The position numbers were made by a program, and so were the translations under genes. The notes below the pieces were generated by a model that searched no databases, had not been told where the DNA came from, and saw only the letters and a program-made list of their open reading frames with translations. A DNA stretch of 64,000 nt from Anaerolineales bacterium (GTDB lineage Bacteria > Chloroflexota > Anaerolineae > 4572-78 > J111): positions 806,001 to 870,000 of the forward strand of contig JABTUK010000002.1 of the NCBI GenBank assembly GCA_015075405.1, in the 5' to 3' direction. Below are positions 9,534-26,145 of the stretch, in pieces (within the stretch, counting starts at the first letter, position 1; every line of letters starts with the position of its first letter).

Positions 9534-9681
9534 CGCACCCTTCGATACGCGCTCCCCTCGCCCTTCGACAAGCCCTTCGGCAAGCTCAGGACGTTGCTCA
9601 GGACGAGTTCCGCGCTACTCAGGATGCGATTATAAGCCGAAAATCATCCTGAGTAGGGCGTTAGCCCGTATCGAAGGGTGA
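9534..9681. repeat. Nested inverted-repeat element
   Basis: The outer arms CACCCTTCGATACG (9536-9549) and CGTATCGAAGGGTG (9668-9681) enclose inner arms CGCTACTCAGGATG and CATCCTGAGTAG. Between them is the CTTCGACAAG...AGCTCAGGA text, a form commonly dispersed in environmental genomes. It lies between two minus-strand genes. Confidence 0.65.
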
Positions 9682-17943: not shown

Positions 17944-19146
17944 TTACCGGCGGCCAAAGCGAGCCACCGCCACACCCACCACCACTACGGCGACGGCAAT
18001 CAAGCCAATGCCAACTACGCCCCACAGGGTTGAGGTAAGCACCGTTACCCTAAATTCAGCCGACTCGGCCGGACCGTCGTTGGGGGTAGCCCGCAGCGTG
18101 ACCACATAATCACCGGCCACCGCTTGTTCGGCGGGCTGAACATTCGCCGTCACTTCGATTTGCTGGCCGCTGCCGATTTCGGCAATTCGCTTCGGCTCAA
18201 ACTCAACCTGCCAGCCGTTGGGCTGCGAAGCCGTCAACTCGACATCATGGGCCGGGGCGCTGCCGGTATTTTGCACCACCAACTTGAGCGGGGTCCGGTC
18301 GCCGGCATACGCCTGGCCGGAGAGCCGGCCATCGGGGGCTGTGACCGTCAGTTCCGGTTGGCCGGTCACTTCGGCGGTTAAGGTGGTGGCTGCTTCTATC
18401 TCACCGCCCTGAGCCAGCACCTTAAATTGATAAGCGCCGGCGGGTATGTCCGGGAACGGTTTAATCTCGACATTCACGGTTTTGGTCTCATTGGCCGTGA
18501 GAGGAAGACTGGTTACGTCCTGACCGGATAATTTAAAGTTGATCTGAAAACCTTTAGGCGTCTCGGACAGCAAATTGACCGTCAAATCCTCGTCACTGGC
18601 GTTCTTCAACTTGGCCGTATAGCGGAAGGTCGTGCTGGATGTGCCTCTAAGGGTGGGTAAATCCACGTTCAATTCCAGGCTGGGCGGCAGTTTTTCTTTG
18701 ACCGTCAATTCAATCGGCAGGCTGATTTCGCCGGCATCGCTGCGGGCAATCACCGAAAAGTTGTAATCGCCTGGCTTCACATTCTGGGGCAGTTCAACTC
18801 GTAAATCCACTTTGGTATCTTTTTCCTCGTTGGGCACTACATAAGCCGCCTCGACTACCCGGCCGCCGCCTCTAAAACTGGCGGTCCAACCGGCGGGCAG
18901 GCCGCGAGTGTCGAACCGCACCAGCTGGGGCGCGGCAGCGGTGGTACGCAAGGTTAAATCAAACGTCACATCTTCGCCAATCGCCGTTTCCTGGGCTGGA
19001 TAACTGGTAAAAAGGGTCAGGTTCGGCTGAGTGGGTAAGGTATTTTGTTGTATCTGGCCTTCTTGAGCCAGGGCGGGCGAAACGCTGAATGTAAGCGCCA
19101 GCAAAACAAACGCCACAGTTAAGATGAGGGAAAATTTAGGTTTCAT
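17944..19146 (-). CDS. NEW3-domain exported protein with C-terminal membrane anchor
   Basis: A 400-residue protein: signal peptide (1-27, LTVAFVLLALTFSVSPALAQ), three or more beta-sandwich repeats of the NEW3 / NPCBM-associated type (about 45-370, each ending in PGDYxFxV-like strands), and a C-terminal hydrophobic helix (about 372-395) ending in Arg-Arg. It should sit on the outer face of the membrane. It is first in an operon with the ABC ATPase and permease, an arrangement seen in Chloroflexota and actinobacteria, so it may be the exporter's extracellular partner. AGGAGGAGAT upstream is a strong ribosome site. Confidence 0.82.
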   Translation of the reverse strand: MKPKFSLILTVAFVLLALTFSVSPALAQEGQIQQNTLPTQPNLTLFTSYPAQETAIGEDVTFDLTLRTTAAAPQLVRFDTRGLPAGWTASFRGGGRVVEAAYVVPNEEKDTKVDLRVELPQNVKPGDYNFSVIARSDAGEISLPIELTVKEKLPPSLELNVDLPTLRGTSSTTFRYTAKLKNASDEDLTVNLLSETPKGFQINFKLSGQDVTSLPLTANETKTVNVEIKPFPDIPAGAYQFKVLAQGGEIEAATTLTAEVTGQPELTVTAPDGRLSGQAYAGDRTPLKLVVQNTGSAPAHDVELTASQPNGWQVEFEPKRIAEIGSGQQIEVTANVQPAEQAVAGDYVVTLRATPNDGPAESAEFRVTVLTSTLWGVVGIGLIAVAVVVVGVAVARFGRR

Positions 19147-19220
19147 AGATCTCCTCCTGACAAAAAACTAAAATTGGGTGATAAGATTTTGCTGTCACAA
19201 CCTTTGCACTCTTTAAATAG

Positions 19221-19310
19221 AACGCAGATAAACACTGATGAACGCTGATTTGCGCAGAAAAATTTATAAAAAATCAGCGAAAATCAGTTGAATCTGCGTC
19301 ATCTGCGTTC
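19221..19310. repeat. Micro-repeat hairpin, word GAACGCAGATAAAC
   Basis: Left arm: GAACGCAGATAAACACTGATG and following units (19220-19254). Right arm: inverse AATCAGCGAAAATCAG...CATCTGCGTTC (19271-19310). A half copy is at 15601-15641. It lies upstream of the NEW3 gene on the minus strand. Confidence 0.8.
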
Positions 19311-19839
19311 AAATTTTGGCTGGTTATGAAAAGTGCAAACATAATGTTTGCTGTATGGTTATTCTCTTTGGAAGACTAAATTTCACCTTCGGCAACCACC
19401 CCCTTAAAGAGTTTAGTTCATAGGTTCACCCAAAACCCTACGAATAGGTTGGCGAGTGTTCAGGCAGGCCAGGCCAGATTAATAAGATCGGGAATTTGGC
19501 AGGCAAAGGGTAAGTTAGCTGCCTGACAATGGAGCAGGTTCAGGTGAAACCGTTTGAGGCTTAACTTCAGCGTGGATTTAAACTTAAGAAAAGTTCATTA
19601 AATAAATAAAGCAGACATAACCCTGTTGTCATCTGTTTTTTCTCAGAATATAACAGAATTTGGATGCTCCGTCTTTAATGCAACTTTAAGGGGAGCTTAA
19701 GAAAACTTTAAACCACCTTTATTCCTACCCAAAGATTATTAGAACTGTATTAGAGCAGTATAAGAGGTTTATTAGAAATAAGACAGGTGGAGATTCTAAC
19801 AAATCTCTAATACTTCTTTAATTTAATTCTAACAATCGT
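19311..19839. other. Gap without a gene; one small perfect palindrome
   Basis: No coding sequence was found. GCAAACA-TAA-TGTTTGC (19335-19351) is a perfect 7-bp-arm palindrome that could be a regulator site for the divergent NEW3 operon. The rest is AT-rich. Confidence 0.4.
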
Positions 19840-19868
19840 TTGATACGTCTAAAAATGTGGTCTATGGT
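19840..19868 (+). promoter_or_regulatory. Promoter of a predicted untranslated RNA
   Basis: TTGATA (19840-19845), an exact 17-nt spacer and TATGGT (19863-19868). No coding gene follows directly; an intrinsic terminator lies about 275 nt downstream at 20116-20146. Confidence 0.5.
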
Positions 19869-19874
19869 AGAGTC

Positions 19875-20147
19875 GGTAGACCGCAGCATCCTTCGGTATA
19901 TTTTACTATTGAGGGTGTTGCAATCTACCCGGCATAGGAATTGAATAGGAGGTTAATATAGGGGTGCTGGAAGATTATCAACCGGCCAGAAACCCGCGAG
20001 CAATAGAGCAGAAAGGGCAGATGAGTTAAATTTTGCCACGCGTGGCCGCCGCAAGCGGTAGATGGGTTTCTGGCAAACGTTAGCCATAGTCCAAATTCAA
20101 TAAATGTGTGGTTGAGACCCGGCCCCTTTCTGCCGGGTCTTTTTATG
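19875..20147 (+). ncRNA. Predicted structured RNA of about 270 nt
   Basis: The interval between a good sigma70 promoter and an intrinsic terminator holds no convincing gene but clear structure: an 11-bp perfect stem GCCAGAAACCC (19985-19995) with GGGTTTCTGGC (20064-20074), enclosing a CCGC-CGCAA-GCGG hairpin. It does not match tmRNA, RNase P, SRP or a riboswitch I recognise. A 21-residue reading (GTG 19964 to TAA 20029, behind AGGAGG at 19947) could make it a leader-peptide attenuator for the SPW/Hsp20 genes instead. Confidence 0.45.
20116..20146 (+). terminator. Intrinsic terminator
   Basis: An 8-bp GC-rich stem, GACCCGGC/GCCGGGTC, around CCCTTTCT, followed by TTTTTAT. It is a textbook terminator with no annotated gene upstream on this strand. 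Confidence 0.85.
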
Positions 20148-20200
20148 TAACGAAGTCGTTATAAGTTGTTTATGGTAAGCAAAGATAAGGAGGTAAGACC

Positions 20201-20560
20201 ATGAAAACGGCAAATTGGCTTAATTGGTTAGTGGCAGTGGCCGGCCTGTGGGAGCTATTGTCCCCCTTTGCTCTGGGCTACTCAGCCCTGACCGTCGCTA
20301 TGTGGAATGCGGTTATTGTCGGCGTGGTGCTGATTGCGCTGGGGGCATGGGCGGCTCTTTACAAAGAGGCCAAGACCGACCGGACCCTTGACTGGATCAA
20401 CGCCGTCCTGGGCGTGTGGTTGGTTATATCCCCCTTTGCTCTGGACTACTCGGCTACGGCAATGGCGATGTGGAACAACATCATTGTCGGCATCGTGGTC
20501 CTGGCGCTGGCCGGGTGGGCTGCCTTTGCTGTCAGCAAAGAAGTTAGCCCGCAAACATAA
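20201..20560 (+). CDS. SPW-repeat membrane protein
   Basis: A 119-residue membrane protein with two copies of the SPW repeat, each two helices, built on NWLNWLVAVAGLWELLSPFA (4-23) and LDWINAVLGVWLVISPFALD. The duplicated LSPFALxYS / ISPFALDYS motif is diagnostic. Function of the family is unknown; it often accompanies stress genes. ATG at 20201 follows AAGGAGG. The gene opens a group with Hsp20, a phosphoribosyltransferase and HtrA. An imperfect palindrome TAACGA-AG-TCGTTA (20148-20161) upstream may be an operator. Confidence 0.83.
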   Translation: MKTANWLNWLVAVAGLWELLSPFALGYSALTVAMWNAVIVGVVLIALGAWAALYKEAKTDRTLDWINAVLGVWLVISPFALDYSATAMAMWNNIIVGIVVLALAGWAAFAVSKEVSPQT

Positions 20561-20574
20561 CCCAATCAACAAGC

Positions 20575-20609
20575 CAGACCCTAAAGGTCTTGGAGACCTT
20601 TAGGGTCTG
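20575..20609. terminator. Long hairpin AGACCCTAAAGGTCT...AGACCTTTAGGGTCT
   Basis: A 15-bp perfect stem with a short TGG loop between the SPW and Hsp20 genes. There is no T-tract, so it may work as an mRNA stability element or be a dispersed palindrome rather than a terminator. Confidence 0.5.
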
Positions 20610-20640
20610 TGATCAAAATTAACGAAAGGAGACGGATATT

Positions 20641-21150
20641 ATGGCTATTACGGATTTAGCCCCCTGGAGATGGGGCGACAAGAAATTATCTATCAGGAAT
20701 GGAGACGAACAGGACCCCTTCTATGCCTTACAAAGAAGGATGGACCGCTTGTTTGATGATTTCTTTAACAGCTTTGGCCTGACCCGGTTTGGCGACTTTG
20801 GCGAGTCCTGGGGAGCGTTTAGCCCGCGGCTTGACCTGAGCGAAAACGAGAAAGAGCTTAAAGTCTCGGCGGAATTACCCGGCCTGGACGAAAACGATAT
20901 TGAAATATCTCTGGATCGGAATGCGCTCACCCTCAAGGGCGAAAAGAAGGAAGAGCAAGAAGACAAAGGCCAGAACTATTACCGCATGGAACGCTCCTAT
21001 GGCGCCTTCCAGCGGACCATCCCGCTTCCCTGTGAGGTAGAGAGCGACAAAGTTGAGGCCACCTTTAAGAAAGGCGTCTTAACCGTCACCCTCCCCAAAA
21101 CGGCCGAAGCGCAAAAACGGACCAAGAAGATCAGTATCAAGGCCGGATAA
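20641..21150 (+). CDS. Hsp20/alpha-crystallin small heat-shock protein
   Basis: A 169-residue ATP-independent holdase. An N-terminal helical arm with MDRLFDDFFNSFG (about 31-43) precedes an alpha-crystallin domain (about 58-165): PRLDLSENEKELKVSAELPG, then LTLKGEKKEE, and the terminal KKGVLTVTLPK. ATG at 20641 follows GAAAGGAGA. Neighbours (SPW, PRTase, HtrA) point to a stress regulon. No CIRCE-type operator is visible upstream. Confidence 0.93.
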   Translation: MAITDLAPWRWGDKKLSIRNGDEQDPFYALQRRMDRLFDDFFNSFGLTRFGDFGESWGAFSPRLDLSENEKELKVSAELPGLDENDIEISLDRNALTLKGEKKEEQEDKGQNYYRMERSYGAFQRTIPLPCEVESDKVEATFKKGVLTVTLPKTAEAQKRTKKISIKAG

Positions 21151-21165
21151 GACGGGTCAAGGGTT

Positions 21166-21201
21166 AAGAGGCGAAGCAGCCGGCCCTGTTTCGCCTCTTT
21201 T
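21166..21201 (+). terminator. Intrinsic terminator of hsp20
   Basis: AAGAGGCGAA pairs with TTCGCCTCTT around a 14-nt GC-rich loop and runs into a short T stretch, 15 nt after the hsp20 stop. Confidence 0.75.
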
Positions 21202-21365
21202 GAAAATTTTCTGAGCAATTTTTATTAATACCCCGGGGGCGGCGTATCGCCCGGCAAGCCAGACTCTCCGTCACCCGCTTCGCTTGCCGAGGAGGCGCCG
21301 CTTCTGCTTTTTGGGTTGCAAGGGGAGGCGCTGACCCCTACGGCCAGGGAAGGAGGTGAAAAAGA

Positions 21366-22100
21366 ATGGTCAAGGCCGGGTCTCTTTTCAAAGACAGAAA
21401 TGAAGCCGGCGTAAAGCTGGCTGCTAATTTGCTTGACGAACCTTTAATCAAAGCGGCGGCCCGAGAGGATTTGTTGGTGTTATCCATCCCCAGAGGCGGC
21501 GTAATCGTTGGCGCAGTTGTAGCTCAGGCATTGGGGTGTTCCCACGACATTATAGCCGTAAACAAGATCGGTTTTCCCGGCCAAAAAGAAACGATAATTG
21601 GCGCAATGGCCGAGGATGGATTGATGGTTTTAAATCGCCAGATATTGAATTGGAGCAACTCTTATATCAAACAAGCCATCAAACTGGCCAAAACCCGGCT
21701 AGAAATCAGCCTTCGGAAATTTCGGCCTGGTCGTGAACTCGACCTGCGCCCCAAGACGGTGATTGTTGTTGACGATGGTATCGTTACTGGCGAGACGATG
21801 AAAGCAGCCCTGATGTGGCTGGCCTTAAAAGAGAAGCCGAAACGTCCGACGCAGGTGTTGGCAGCGGTACCGGTTTGCGCTGCTCAGGCAGCCAGAGATT
21901 TTGAGAAATTGGCCGATAAGTTTATCTGCTTAAACACCCTCGACCAATTACCGGCAGTCGGTCAGGTTTACCAGAACTTTAATCCTATCGGCGACAGAGA
22001 GGTGCGGGACTACTTATCCCCAAGCCTGACCGTTCTGCCTCTATGGCAGTTTAAACCAAATGTTCCGGTCAACGATTTGGCTTACGCCGGATGTAATTGA
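21366..22100 (+). CDS. Phosphoribosyltransferase-fold protein
   Basis: A 244-residue protein with a type I PRTase core: the PRPP-binding loop VVDDGIVTGETMKAA (about 137-151), preceded by LSIPRGGVIVGAVVAQ (about 42-57). Members of this group occur beside hsp20 and other stress genes in many genomes; their substrate is not established. It starts at ATG 21366 directly after GGAAGGAGGTG. The 215-nt leader contains the hsp20 terminator. Confidence 0.85.
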   Translation: MVKAGSLFKDRNEAGVKLAANLLDEPLIKAAAREDLLVLSIPRGGVIVGAVVAQALGCSHDIIAVNKIGFPGQKETIIGAMAEDGLMVLNRQILNWSNSYIKQAIKLAKTRLEISLRKFRPGRELDLRPKTVIVVDDGIVTGETMKAALMWLALKEKPKRPTQVLAAVPVCAAQAARDFEKLADKFICLNTLDQLPAVGQVYQNFNPIGDREVRDYLSPSLTVLPLWQFKPNVPVNDLAYAGCN

Positions 22101-22224
22101 AGTTGAGAACAAAACTGTCAGGGATACAGCGACACGACTTACGCAAAATGTGTAACTACCGCCTTATTTGAAAAGTATTGGTTTTAGAACCCGATTATAA
22201 TTTATAGCTAAAGGAGGTATTCTT

Positions 22225-23520
22225 ATGAGAACTCGTATATCGTTATCCGCTGTTGTTATCGCTTTAATTGGCCTGGTAATCTTTTTGATAATAATCGTCG
22301 GCGCTTTTGCCGGCGGGGTGGTGCTGACCCCCTACCTGGCCGACCGGGTCCAGGCTGCCCCGGCTTCGCCGCTTGCCCCTGTTGCGCAACCGATGATGCG
22401 GCTGCCCGCGCCCGAAAATGACGTCCTTGCCGCCTATGAACAGGCTTTGAATGATATTTATGAGGCCGCGCTGCCGTCGGTGGTGAATATTCAGGTTGCC
22501 CAAAAAATAGAGCCACAAACAGGCAATACGCCTTACAACTTCTATAACGATCCCTTCGGCTTTGGGATGCCGTTTCCGCAAACGCCGGAAGAGTTTTACC
22601 GGCGCGGGCAAGGGTCTGGCTTTGTCTGGGATACCGAGGGCCACATTGTCACCAACTATCACGTCGTTGAAGACGCCGCCGATGTGGAGGTCATTTTTGC
22701 CGACGGTAAAACCGTCAAAGCGGAAGTGGTGGGCACCGACCGCGACGCCGACCTGGCGGTTATCAAGGTAGACCGGCCGGCGGCCGAGCTGCAGCCCGTT
22801 ACCCTGGGCGATAGTGATAAGCTGCGGGTAGGCCAGATAGTCATTGCTATCGGCAACCCGTTTGGGCAGGAATTTACCATGACCAGCGGCATCGTCAGCG
22901 CTGTGGGGCGTACCATTCGCAGCGGCAACAGCCCCTTTTCCATCCCGGAGGTCATCCAAACCGATGCAGCCATCAATCCGGGCAATTCCGGCGGCCCGCT
23001 GCTCAACCGCCAGGGCGAAGTGATCGGTATCAATACGATGATTATCAGCCGCAGCGGGAGCAATGCCGGGGTCGGATTTGCCGTACCCATTAACATCGCC
23101 CGGCGAGTTGTCCCAACCCTGATCAAGGGTGAAACTTATGAATATGCCTGGCTGGGCATCAGCGGGGCAACGCTCACCTCCGAAGTAGCTGACTTTATGA
23201 AGCTTCCGTCTGACACAAAAGGCGCCCTGGTGGTTGAGGTGGCCCAAGACAGCCCGGCCGATGAAGCCGGCTTGCAGGGCAGCGACAAGATTTTGAAAGT
23301 GGCCGGCCAGGAGTATCAGCTGGGCGGTGATGTGATTGTGGGCATTAATGACCGGCCGGTAGAAACAATGGATGACCTGATTGCCTACCTCACGGATGAA
23401 ACTCAGCCCGGCGACCGGGTTAAGCTCGACCTCATCCGGCCTAATGGCGAACGCGAGACGGTTGAGATCACGCTGAAGGCTCGACCGGGAACCGGTGAGG
23501 TCACTCAAGAAAATAAATAA
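22225..23520 (+). CDS. HtrA/DegP-type serine protease with PDZ domain
   Basis: A 431-residue envelope protease: an N-terminal membrane anchor (about 8-33), a trypsin-like domain with the catalytic triad His146 (NYHVVED), Asp176 (DADLAVIKV) and Ser255 (NPGNSGGPLL), then one PDZ domain (about 305-425, AWLGISG...GSDKILKVAG). It degrades or refolds misfolded envelope proteins. ATG at 22225 follows AAAGGAGG. A perfect TATAAT at 22196-22201 lies just upstream, without a well-spaced -35 box. It completes the proteostasis group. Confidence 0.93.
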   Translation: MRTRISLSAVVIALIGLVIFLIIIVGAFAGGVVLTPYLADRVQAAPASPLAPVAQPMMRLPAPENDVLAAYEQALNDIYEAALPSVVNIQVAQKIEPQTGNTPYNFYNDPFGFGMPFPQTPEEFYRRGQGSGFVWDTEGHIVTNYHVVEDAADVEVIFADGKTVKAEVVGTDRDADLAVIKVDRPAAELQPVTLGDSDKLRVGQIVIAIGNPFGQEFTMTSGIVSAVGRTIRSGNSPFSIPEVIQTDAAINPGNSGGPLLNRQGEVIGINTMIISRSGSNAGVGFAVPINIARRVVPTLIKGETYEYAWLGISGATLTSEVADFMKLPSDTKGALVVEVAQDSPADEAGLQGSDKILKVAGQEYQLGGDVIVGINDRPVETMDDLIAYLTDETQPGDRVKLDLIRPNGERETVEITLKARPGTGEVTQENK

Positions 23521-23534
23521 GCCTTTCACTCAAA

Positions 23535-23596
23535 CGCTCAGACGCAGAGGGCGCTCAAAGATTTAACATCACCGCGCCGTCTCTGCGTCTGGGTGG
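23535..23596. repeat. Micro-repeat hairpin, word CAGACGCAGAG
   Basis: CTCAGACGCAGAGGGCGC (23538-23555) faces GCGCCGTCTCTGCGTCTGGGTGG (23574-23596). It has the same architecture as the other micro-repeat hairpins and sits 15 nt after the htrA stop. Confidence 0.65.
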
Positions 23597-23626
23597 TCAT
23601 AACCCCACCTAAGCAAGCAAGTCCGG

Positions 23627-23738
23627 CGCACAAGGCTAAAGCCATCGTGCTGAGAGAGCGAAGCCCTAACGGGCTAAAATTCTAGCTCAAAGAGCTTTGC
23701 CCTTTTAAAGCGATGGCTTCAGCCTTGCTCATGGGCAC
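23627..23738. repeat. Inverted repeat GCACAAGGCTAAAGCC...GGCTTCAGCCTTGC
   Basis: The arms CACAAGGCTAAAGCCATCG (23630-23648) and CGATGGCTTCAGCCTTG (23711-23727) pair almost completely. They enclose an inner AGCCCTAACGGGCT hairpin. It is probably a dispersed palindromic element. Confidence 0.6.
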
Positions 23739-23796
23739 GATTATCAGGCTTGAATGATAAACCCATAGATAGAGTATTACAAGGAGATAAGAGCCT

Positions 23797-26145
23797 ATGC
23801 TGAAAGAAAATCAATCTAATGGACATCTAAACAGAAGCCGCGGAAACTCACCGCCGCGCCAGATTGCCTTTATTGGCAACTATCTGCCGCGCCAGTGTGG
23901 CATTGCCACCTTTACCACCGACTTGTGCCAGGCGGTTGCCGCCGCATACCCGGAAACAACCTGCTTTACCATCGCCGTGAATGATATACCCACCGGTTAT
24001 AACTATCCTCCCCAGGTCCGCTTTGAGCTGGCCGAACAGGACCTGACTTCTTACCAACGAGCCGCCGATTTCTTAAACGTAAACAATGTTGACCTGGTCT
24101 GTTTGCAGCATGAATACGGTATCTTCGGGGGACCGGCGGGCAGCCACATTTTAGCCTTGCTGCGCGAGTTGCGCATGCCCATCGTTACCACCCTGCACAC
24201 CGTGCTCCGTGAACCGGAGGCGAACCAACGCCGGGTGATGAAGGAGTTAACCAACCTCTCCGACCGGCTGGTAGTCATGAGCCGGCGGGCCTCAGAATTT
24301 TTGCGCGATATTTATCAAGTCTCTGCTGAGAAAATTGATCTGATTCCCCATGGCATTCCCGATGTTGCCTTTGTAGACCCCAATTTCTACAAGGACCAGT
24401 TCGGGGTAGAGGGCAAGCAGGCGCTGCTGACCTTTGGTCTGCTCTCGCCCAATAAAGGCATTGAAAACGTTATCAAGGCCCTGCCAATCATCCTGCGCCG
24501 CCATCCCAACGTGGTCTATCTTATCCTGGGGGCGACGCATCCCCACGTGAAGCGGCATGCGGGCGAGATGTATCGCCTCAGTTTACAGCGGCTGGCCCGA
24601 GAAAGTGGGGTTGAAGAAGCCGTAATTTTTCACAATCGCTTTGTCAGCCTGCAGGAACTGGTCGAGTTCATCGGCGCAGCCGATATCTACCTGACGCCCT
24701 ACCTCAACCCGGCTCAAATCGTCTCCGGCACACTGGCCTATACCCTCGGCGCAGGCAAGGCCGTAGTTTCGACGCCCTATTGGTACGCCGAAGAGTTGCT
24801 GGCCGAGGGGCGAGGGCGGCTGGTTCCCTTTGGCGATCCCCAGGCCATTGCCCGGCAAGTCATTGACCTGCTGGATAACGAAGCCGAGCGCCACGCCATG
24901 CGTAAACGCGCCTACACCTTTGGCCGGGATATGGTCTGGTCTCAGGTAGCCTACGGTTACATGCAGAGTTTTGAACGAGCGCGCCAGGAGCGGCGATTGC
25001 ATCCGCGTCCGGTCTTTGTGGCTCGCCATCTGGGCGACAGCCGGGATGATTTGCCGGCTTTGACGTGGGATCATTTGCTGCGCCTGACCGACGATACCGG
25101 CTTACTTCAACACGCTATTTTCACCGTTCCCAACTACAACGAAGGCTATACCACCGATGATAACGCCCGCGCCTTGGCGTTAACCGTCTTCATCGAAGAA
25201 ATGGAGGGCGAAATGCCGGTGGAGGTAGATCGGCTGGCCTGCCGCTACCTGGCCTTCTTGTGGCATGCCTTTGATCCACAAACCGGACGCTTTCGCAACT
25301 TCATGGCCTATGATCGTCGCTGGTTGGAGGAGGTAGGCTCCGAAGACAGCCACAGCCGGGCCTTGTGGGCATTGGGAACAGTGTTAGGACGCTCTAACAA
25401 CGATGGGCTGCGTGGTCTGGCCGGACGGCTCTTCGACAAAGCGCTCTCGCCGGTGCTGGAATTTACCAGCCCGCGAGCCTGGGCTTTTACCCTGATAGCC
25501 ATTCATGAATACCTGCGTCGCTTCTCCGGCGACCGGGCCGCTCGCCATATTCAAGAAGGGCTGGCCGCACGACTGCTGGATTTGTACCGCCGGCACAGCA
25601 CTGCCGATTGGCCCTGGTTTGAAGGTATTGTCAGCTATGACAACGCCAGCCTACCGCATGCGCTCCTATTGGGTGGTCAAGAATTGGGACAGCCCGAAAT
25701 GATTGATACAGGTCTCAACTCTCTGAGATGGTTAGCCGACATTCAATGCGCTCAACGCGGCCACTTTATCCCTATCGGCAACCAGGGCTTTTATCGCCGG
25801 GGAGAGACAAAGGCCCGCTTCGACCAGCAGCCCATCGAGGCCCAGGCCATGGTTTCGGCCTGCCTCGAAGCTTATCGCCTAACAGACGACCCACGCTGGT
25901 ATCAAGAGGCGCAGCGCGCCTTTGAATGGTTCCTGGGACGCAATGACCTGGGGCTGCCGCTTTATGACTCGGTGACCGGGGGCTGCCGGGATGGCTTGCA
26001 CCCTGACCGGGTGAATCAAAATCAAGGAGCGGAGTCGACCCTGGCCTTTCTGCTGGCGCTGGTCGAAATGCACCTGGCCAAACAGGTTTTGAGCCTGGTT
26101 CGAGATAAAGCGCTGGTCGAACCGCGCCTGTCCCAATTGGCTTAG
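23797..26145 (+). CDS. GT4 glycosyltransferase fused to a C-terminal alpha/alpha-toroid-like domain
   Basis: A 782-residue cytosolic protein. Residues about 20-395 are a GT-B family 4 glycosyltransferase (PRQCGIATFTTDLC near the start, LTFGLLSPNKGIENVIKALP in the middle, and a TPYWYAEELL segment at the nucleotide-sugar site). Residues about 410-775 are helix-rich with repeated Trp/His/Asp motifs (TTDDNARALALT, HSRALWALGTVLG) resembling six-hairpin glycosidase or cellobiose-epimerase folds. Such fusions occur in gene sets for mannosylated glycans. Two enzymes next door (GT4, GH130) support beta-mannoside metabolism. Substrate is inferred. Confidence 0.85.
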   Translation: MLKENQSNGHLNRSRGNSPPRQIAFIGNYLPRQCGIATFTTDLCQAVAAAYPETTCFTIAVNDIPTGYNYPPQVRFELAEQDLTSYQRAADFLNVNNVDLVCLQHEYGIFGGPAGSHILALLRELRMPIVTTLHTVLREPEANQRRVMKELTNLSDRLVVMSRRASEFLRDIYQVSAEKIDLIPHGIPDVAFVDPNFYKDQFGVEGKQALLTFGLLSPNKGIENVIKALPIILRRHPNVVYLILGATHPHVKRHAGEMYRLSLQRLARESGVEEAVIFHNRFVSLQELVEFIGAADIYLTPYLNPAQIVSGTLAYTLGAGKAVVSTPYWYAEELLAEGRGRLVPFGDPQAIARQVIDLLDNEAERHAMRKRAYTFGRDMVWSQVAYGYMQSFERARQERRLHPRPVFVARHLGDSRDDLPALTWDHLLRLTDDTGLLQHAIFTVPNYNEGYTTDDNARALALTVFIEEMEGEMPVEVDRLACRYLAFLWHAFDPQTGRFRNFMAYDRRWLEEVGSEDSHSRALWALGTVLGRSNNDGLRGLAGRLFDKALSPVLEFTSPRAWAFTLIAIHEYLRRFSGDRAARHIQEGLAARLLDLYRRHSTADWPWFEGIVSYDNASLPHALLLGGQELGQPEMIDTGLNSLRWLADIQCAQRGHFIPIGNQGFYRRGETKARFDQQPIEAQAMVSACLEAYRLTDDPRWYQEAQRAFEWFLGRNDLGLPLYDSVTGGCRDGLHPDRVNQNQGAESTLAFLLALVEMHLAKQVLSLVRDKALVEPRLSQLA

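Follow-up and report, generated by a model that had tools for sequence, protein, structure and literature searches.

Our study found arrays of CTAAYA hexamers, repeated every 11 bp and standing at a constant spacing from a -10 element, upstream of chaperone genes in the genome under study and in related bacteria. Two such arrays lie beside a candidate RNA (19840-20147 of the 64-kb stretch of DNA analysed here, the window). Our results suggest that an orphan regulator of the OmpR family activates dnaK, groESL, clpB, hsp20 and lon through these repeats, which stand nine bases ahead of the -10. The regulon would extend over one order and occur sporadically in the rest of the class, and at the present locus the regulator would also drive a terminated leader RNA gating a second stress operon; we put the odds of all this at about even. 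As for the interval itself, we favour its being the terminated 5' leader of a stress operon of the chaperone regulon, with SPW, Hsp20, HtrA and glycosyltransferase genes (probability roughly 0.5), and possibly an attenuator. The chaperone regulon is the more interesting find. The RNA alone makes a modest case, that of a leader which ends in a terminator and owes its strongest fold to a repeat.

Repeat arrays and chaperone genes

The interval was originally predicted to start at an orphan promoter, TTGATA (19840-19845) and TATGGT (19863-19868) on the plus strand with a 17-nt spacer. The letters are as claimed, and TTGATA is also in 11-bp register with one of the arrays. Yet sigma-70-like promoters of this type are at chance level (4 matches found for 3.4 expected), and the match therefore has no weight on its own. 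Nor is the promoter an orphan, because repeat arrays common to chaperone genes in related bacteria lie directly upstream. These two back-to-back arrays had been overlooked. The leftward one, on the minus strand, reads CTAATA-N5-CTTATA-N5-CTAATA(-N5-CTAATA) and points toward a NEW3-domain gene (17944-19146); its repeats occupy 19737-19775 (19733-19775 with the -10), and the -10, TAATCT, stands nine bases past the third repeat. The rightward one (CTAACA-N5-CTAATA-N5-TTAATT-N5-CTAACA, 19796-19834, plus strand) points toward the candidate RNA and the SPW and Hsp20 genes, keeps the 11-bp register throughout and matches with zero mismatches. The array pattern has 4 matches in the window for 0.02 expected. 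Nine nucleotides after the last CTAACA, where chaperone arrays have TAnnnT, the rightward array has TACGTC (19844-19849, plus strand), in which the last T is missing. Hence, the strict pattern of array, N9 and TAnnnT is passed by the leftward array and failed by the rightward one, and this imperfect -10 is a point against the latter.

Similar arrays recur at chaperone genes. When one mismatch was allowed, the window's own genome had 5 array matches (control 0) at three places: before groES (with groEL and three hsp20 genes), before clpB and at the present locus. In the 25 genomes of the order, 47 matches were found, the reversed control giving 5. Among 25 array loci examined, 14 are followed by chaperone or protease genes (groES, clp, hsp20, dnaK, lon), two by a glycosyltransferase gene like that at 23797 and nine by other genes. 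These labels were read from the beginnings of the proteins, and Pfam agreed with all of them for the 10 downstream proteins submitted to it (one being the genome's own dnaK product); the own GroEL, ClpB and Hsp20 proteins were also run against Pfam. The original link between the interval and the stress genes downstream is thus backed by upstream arrays that chaperone genes have in common.

The arrays keep a constant geometry. Once aligned on their last repeat, 17 of the 18 chaperone and glycosyltransferase arrays have T[AT]nnnT nine bases on, as do 23 of all 28 array rows; other offsets give at most 2/18 or 5/28. This fixed distance to the -10 suggests an activator sitting at the -35 position. 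Across the 396 genomes of the class, the strict pattern matches 20 times (control 0) in 16 genomes, 10 of them among the 25 of the order and 6 among the 371 outside it. Of these matches, 19 stand before dnaK, groES, clp or hsp20 genes, and the remaining one is the window's leftward array. Among 121 genomes drawn from the phylum, the array with its -10 was found in the own genome only. The array set has the direct repeats every 11 bp and the fixed -10 distance of an OmpR/PhoB-type operator, the rightward window array having these with an imperfect -10.

Other repeats with this spacing were seen. Some of the nine arrays before other genes consist of TTAACA/TTTACA repeats, and such arrays stand, by eye, before PstS-like and rhodanese-like genes (L074 and L058 in G003, L057 in G002). 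They suggest sister regulators with related operators, and those near the PstS-like gene (L074) may be the true Pho version in these bacteria. The window has a third array (19675-19712) of CTTTAAG-type repeats every 11 bp (2 matches for 0.00 expected), which is possibly a phosphate-type operator; similar repeats were seen by eye upstream of relatives of the NEW3-domain gene in three genomes (G002, G003 and G004).

A candidate for the regulator comes from gene neighbourhoods. At three of seven loci where an array precedes dnaK (L103, L104 and L105), the gene of an OmpR-family response regulator ends just upstream, on the same strand; contig ends truncate some of the remaining loci, and the one in G020 has a receiver protein only. 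The protein of L105 has the domains PF00072 and PF00486. The own genome has one clear counterpart (C5:1211883-1212569; L122 5881-6591), which is 69% identical, the next best being 45%, and no kinase gene was recognised by eye beside it. This orphan adjoins a diacylglycerol-kinase-like gene (named by eye). From gene adjacency only, at these three of seven loci, we infer that the OmpR-family regulator binds the CTAAYA arrays. An OmpR-type regulator also adjoins the best relative of the SPW gene, in G017.

The candidate leader RNA

The interval ends in an intrinsic terminator, as originally claimed. It lies at 20114-20146 (plus strand) and is strong, with 10 pairs, 7 of them G-C, followed by a T run. 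Shuffling the 4-kb region 200 times produced an equally strong plus-strand terminator only once, and the stem has a probability of 1.0 in the predicted ensemble. It is the only strong plus-strand terminator in 18000-22000, and none was found in 20147-24000. We agree that no gene lies between promoter and terminator. We found no nearby upstream gene on the plus strand for the terminator to serve, and no sigma-70-like site between it and the SPW gene. Among the leaders of 18 other array genes, terminator-like stems are present in four and have only 6-8 pairs, so that strong termination of the leader sets the present locus apart.

At its other end, the RNA has a hairpin (19875-19929, plus strand; fold z -5.14) whose first base is the start predicted from the sigma-70-like match. 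In a covariance-model search, the hairpin matched another site of the own genome, L015, with 21.5 bits, and plain alignment of the two gave 38 identical positions out of 55, equalled by none of 2000 shuffles. L015, considered as a relative of the RNA, proved to be the repeat hairpin. Together with L032, it belongs to a dispersed palindrome, CCYTTCGRTAC...TACTCAGG, which has 153 pattern matches in the own genome (reversed control 0). One copy lies within the window (9648-9678), and the palindromes often occur in facing pairs. The hairpin at 19875-19929 is too decayed to match the pattern itself; its sequence match to L015 beyond chance is that of a REP-like genomic copy. Given this match and the family of 153 matches, the most stable element of the RNA is an old repeat. 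It is a decayed copy of a palindrome dispersed in its own genome, and the idea of a new RNA fold fails for the strongest structured piece. REP palindromes, as outlined in PMC3733652, are short, dispersed and located in non-coding DNA, in Chloroflexi among others. The hairpin resembles them in being a short dispersed palindrome in non-coding DNA, and differs from that outline in being decayed and inside a presumed transcript.

The rest of the RNA is less structured. The whole candidate folds better than all of 200 shuffles (z -4.26), but this stability comes mainly from the repeat hairpin and the terminator. The middle (19930-20112, plus strand), predicted to form a long-range rod, has a z of only -2.39 on its own, which is not exceptional: among 240 random 188-nt windows from the 64 kb, 15 reach this value and 6 reach -4.26. 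The perfect 11-bp stem of the original prediction does exist within it (19985-19995 with 20064-20074) and is marginally beyond chance, stems of at least 11 bp being found in 2 of 150 shuffles of the whole RNA and 1 of 200 shuffles of the middle part.

Searches for relatives were negative. At gathering thresholds, none of the 4227 Rfam models matched in the window, and relaxed thresholds gave nothing credible (the best, isrO, scored 25.3 for 42 bits required, mainly on the terminator), in line with the claim that the RNA belongs to no known class. Similarity searches with the interval returned itself alone in the own genome and nothing in the other 11 of the 12 family genomes or in phages; plasmids gave 8 records with short matches (~10-11% of the query, E 0.8). 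A single-sequence covariance model found no credible homologue in the 396 class genomes. Three matches in other genomes of the class were judged chance (E ~0.5), and a match in L087 (17.4 bits), whose length points to a heavily deleted alignment, was not accepted either. The regions upstream of four SPW relatives (L003-L006) have no leader of this kind. What survives of the predicted structured RNA is a plausible non-coding transcript of the plus strand that ends at 20146; its fold is largely repeat, its middle unexceptional, and no credible homologue was found in the 396 class genomes.

The possibility of a leader-peptide attenuator, in which translation of a 21-codon frame would control formation of the terminator, had been left open. 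The frame is there (19964-20029, plus strand), starting with GTG 11 nt after AGGAGG (19947-19952), and within it lies GCAGAAAGGG (20008-20017), a complement of the terminator loop region (20124-20133). We nevertheless regard this mechanism as highly improbable. A 21-codon frame with a ribosome site appears in 64 of 2000 shuffles (~3%), and this one is probably due to chance. Its ribosome site is predicted to be paired inside the rod, it has no diagnostic run of codons, and no credible relative of the leader was found among the 396 class genomes. Pairing of 20008-20017 with 20124-20133, the only strong alternative, is ~18 kcal/mol worse than the terminator fold, and no mutually exclusive terminator and antiterminator structures, in which the terminator would melt, were found. 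An RNA thermometer at the start of SPW or Hsp20 also appears unlikely: SPW has a paired start codon but a mostly open Shine-Dalgarno sequence, and the Hsp20 site, too, is mostly open.

Neighbouring genes and readings of the locus

Five plus-strand genes follow the terminator. They encode an SPW-repeat protein (PF03779, 20201-20560), an Hsp20 (PF00011, 20641-21150), a phosphoribosyltransferase-domain protein (PF00156, 21366-22100), an HtrA/DegP-like protease with Trypsin_2 and PDZ domains (22225-23520) and a glycosyltransferase (23797-26145) whose lookalikes in two related genomes lie directly behind an array. Relatives of the SPW gene were found in 3 of the other 24 genomes of the order, and its own genome contains a paralogue. 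A search of further genome contigs gave no SPW relative and 10 Hsp20 loci, none of them useful for the leader. In those contigs, the nearest relatives of the Hsp20 are in Nitrospirae-type and Deferribacteres bins (58-60% identical), and horizontal transfer of the gene is possible. A 16-bp hairpin between SPW and Hsp20 (20575-20609), devoid of a plus-strand T run, may stabilise the mRNA or terminate transcription of the opposite strand.

Under the reading we favour, an OmpR-family response regulator would bind the repeats at 19796-19834 and activate rightward transcription, with a start near 19856 or 19875. The transcript would cross the repeat-derived hairpin and a loosely folded middle, and most transcription would stop at the 20146 terminator, leaving a non-coding RNA of ~270-290 nt. 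The fraction reading through would become the mRNA for SPW, Hsp20, the phosphoribosyltransferase, HtrA and the glycosyltransferase (20201-26145). Expression of these genes would thus depend on read-through, which may itself be regulated.

This stress-operon leader agrees with the excess of arrays in the window, with the position of 19 of 20 strict matches before dnaK, groES, clp or hsp20, and with the two genomes where an array directly precedes a glycosyltransferase gene like the last of the row. It also accounts for a terminator beyond chance that has no close upstream gene to serve, no promoter-like site between it and SPW, and no strong successor up to 24000. On the other side stand the imperfect TACGTC, a terminator strength that other array leaders do not share, SPW relatives lacking such a leader, and the lack of a fold that would melt the terminator. 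Alternatively, the array promoter might make only the terminated RNA, a free-standing small RNA induced by stress and acting elsewhere, with SPW and Hsp20 under a promoter of their own. The strong terminator, the fold that beats all shuffles and the sigma-70-like match that sets the start exactly at the hairpin all speak for it. We find it unlikely, since its stable fold is mainly repeat hairpin and terminator, credible homologues are missing from the class genomes, the 12 family genomes and phages, plasmids offer only short matches, and nothing like a promoter was found past the terminator.

Another possibility, with the imperfect rightward -10 in its favour, is that the arrays serve mainly the NEW3-domain gene, the right side having decayed and the terminator only shielding SPW and Hsp20 from spurious transcription. 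That the leftward array alone passes the strict pattern, that the 5' hairpin derives from a repeat now decayed and that the middle is not conserved in the 396 class genomes all fit such an insulator surrounded by debris. Yet the rightward array keeps every repeat in register without mismatch, and the row downstream contains Hsp20, HtrA and glycosyltransferase genes, two of these types being driven by arrays elsewhere. We consider this explanation quite unlikely.

Comparison with known systems

Control of a chaperonin gene by an orphan response regulator has a precedent in Myxococcus, where MXAN_4468 is described in PMC9040617 as exerting negative control on duplicate groELs. Our candidate would resemble it as an orphan response regulator of a chaperonin gene, and differs in that the control there is negative and of duplicate groELs, and in that the part of that paper available to us describes no 11-bp array. 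We found no report of the CTAAYA operator or of the leader RNA in the titles and abstract openings of the open-access literature on heat shock in Chloroflexota/Anaerolineae, CIRCE/HrcA, REP and small RNAs, and orphan OmpR regulators.

Terminated leaders and attenuators have a promoter, a folded leader and an intrinsic terminator, and then an operon. The locus has this same order, but no antiterminator, ligand site or diagnostic peptide was found in it. The chaperone operators of CtsR and HrcA (CIRCE) are repressor sites. The CTAAYA arrays resemble them in being one operator common to groES, clpB, hsp20 and dnaK, and differ in consisting of 3-5 direct repeats that precede the -10 by a constant spacing, a layout that suggests an activator. 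The arrays also resemble the Pho box of PhoB/PhoP-type response regulators, where tandem hexamers every 11 bp stand beside the -10 and replace the -35; the likeness lies in this arrangement, and the difference in the CTAAYA repeat and in the chaperone genes. A shared chaperone operator with a two-component-type regulator predicts which genes respond together and provides a candidate for their regulator. If true, this would be a heat-shock control circuit, in mostly uncultured bacteria, unlike the known repressors and sigma factors.
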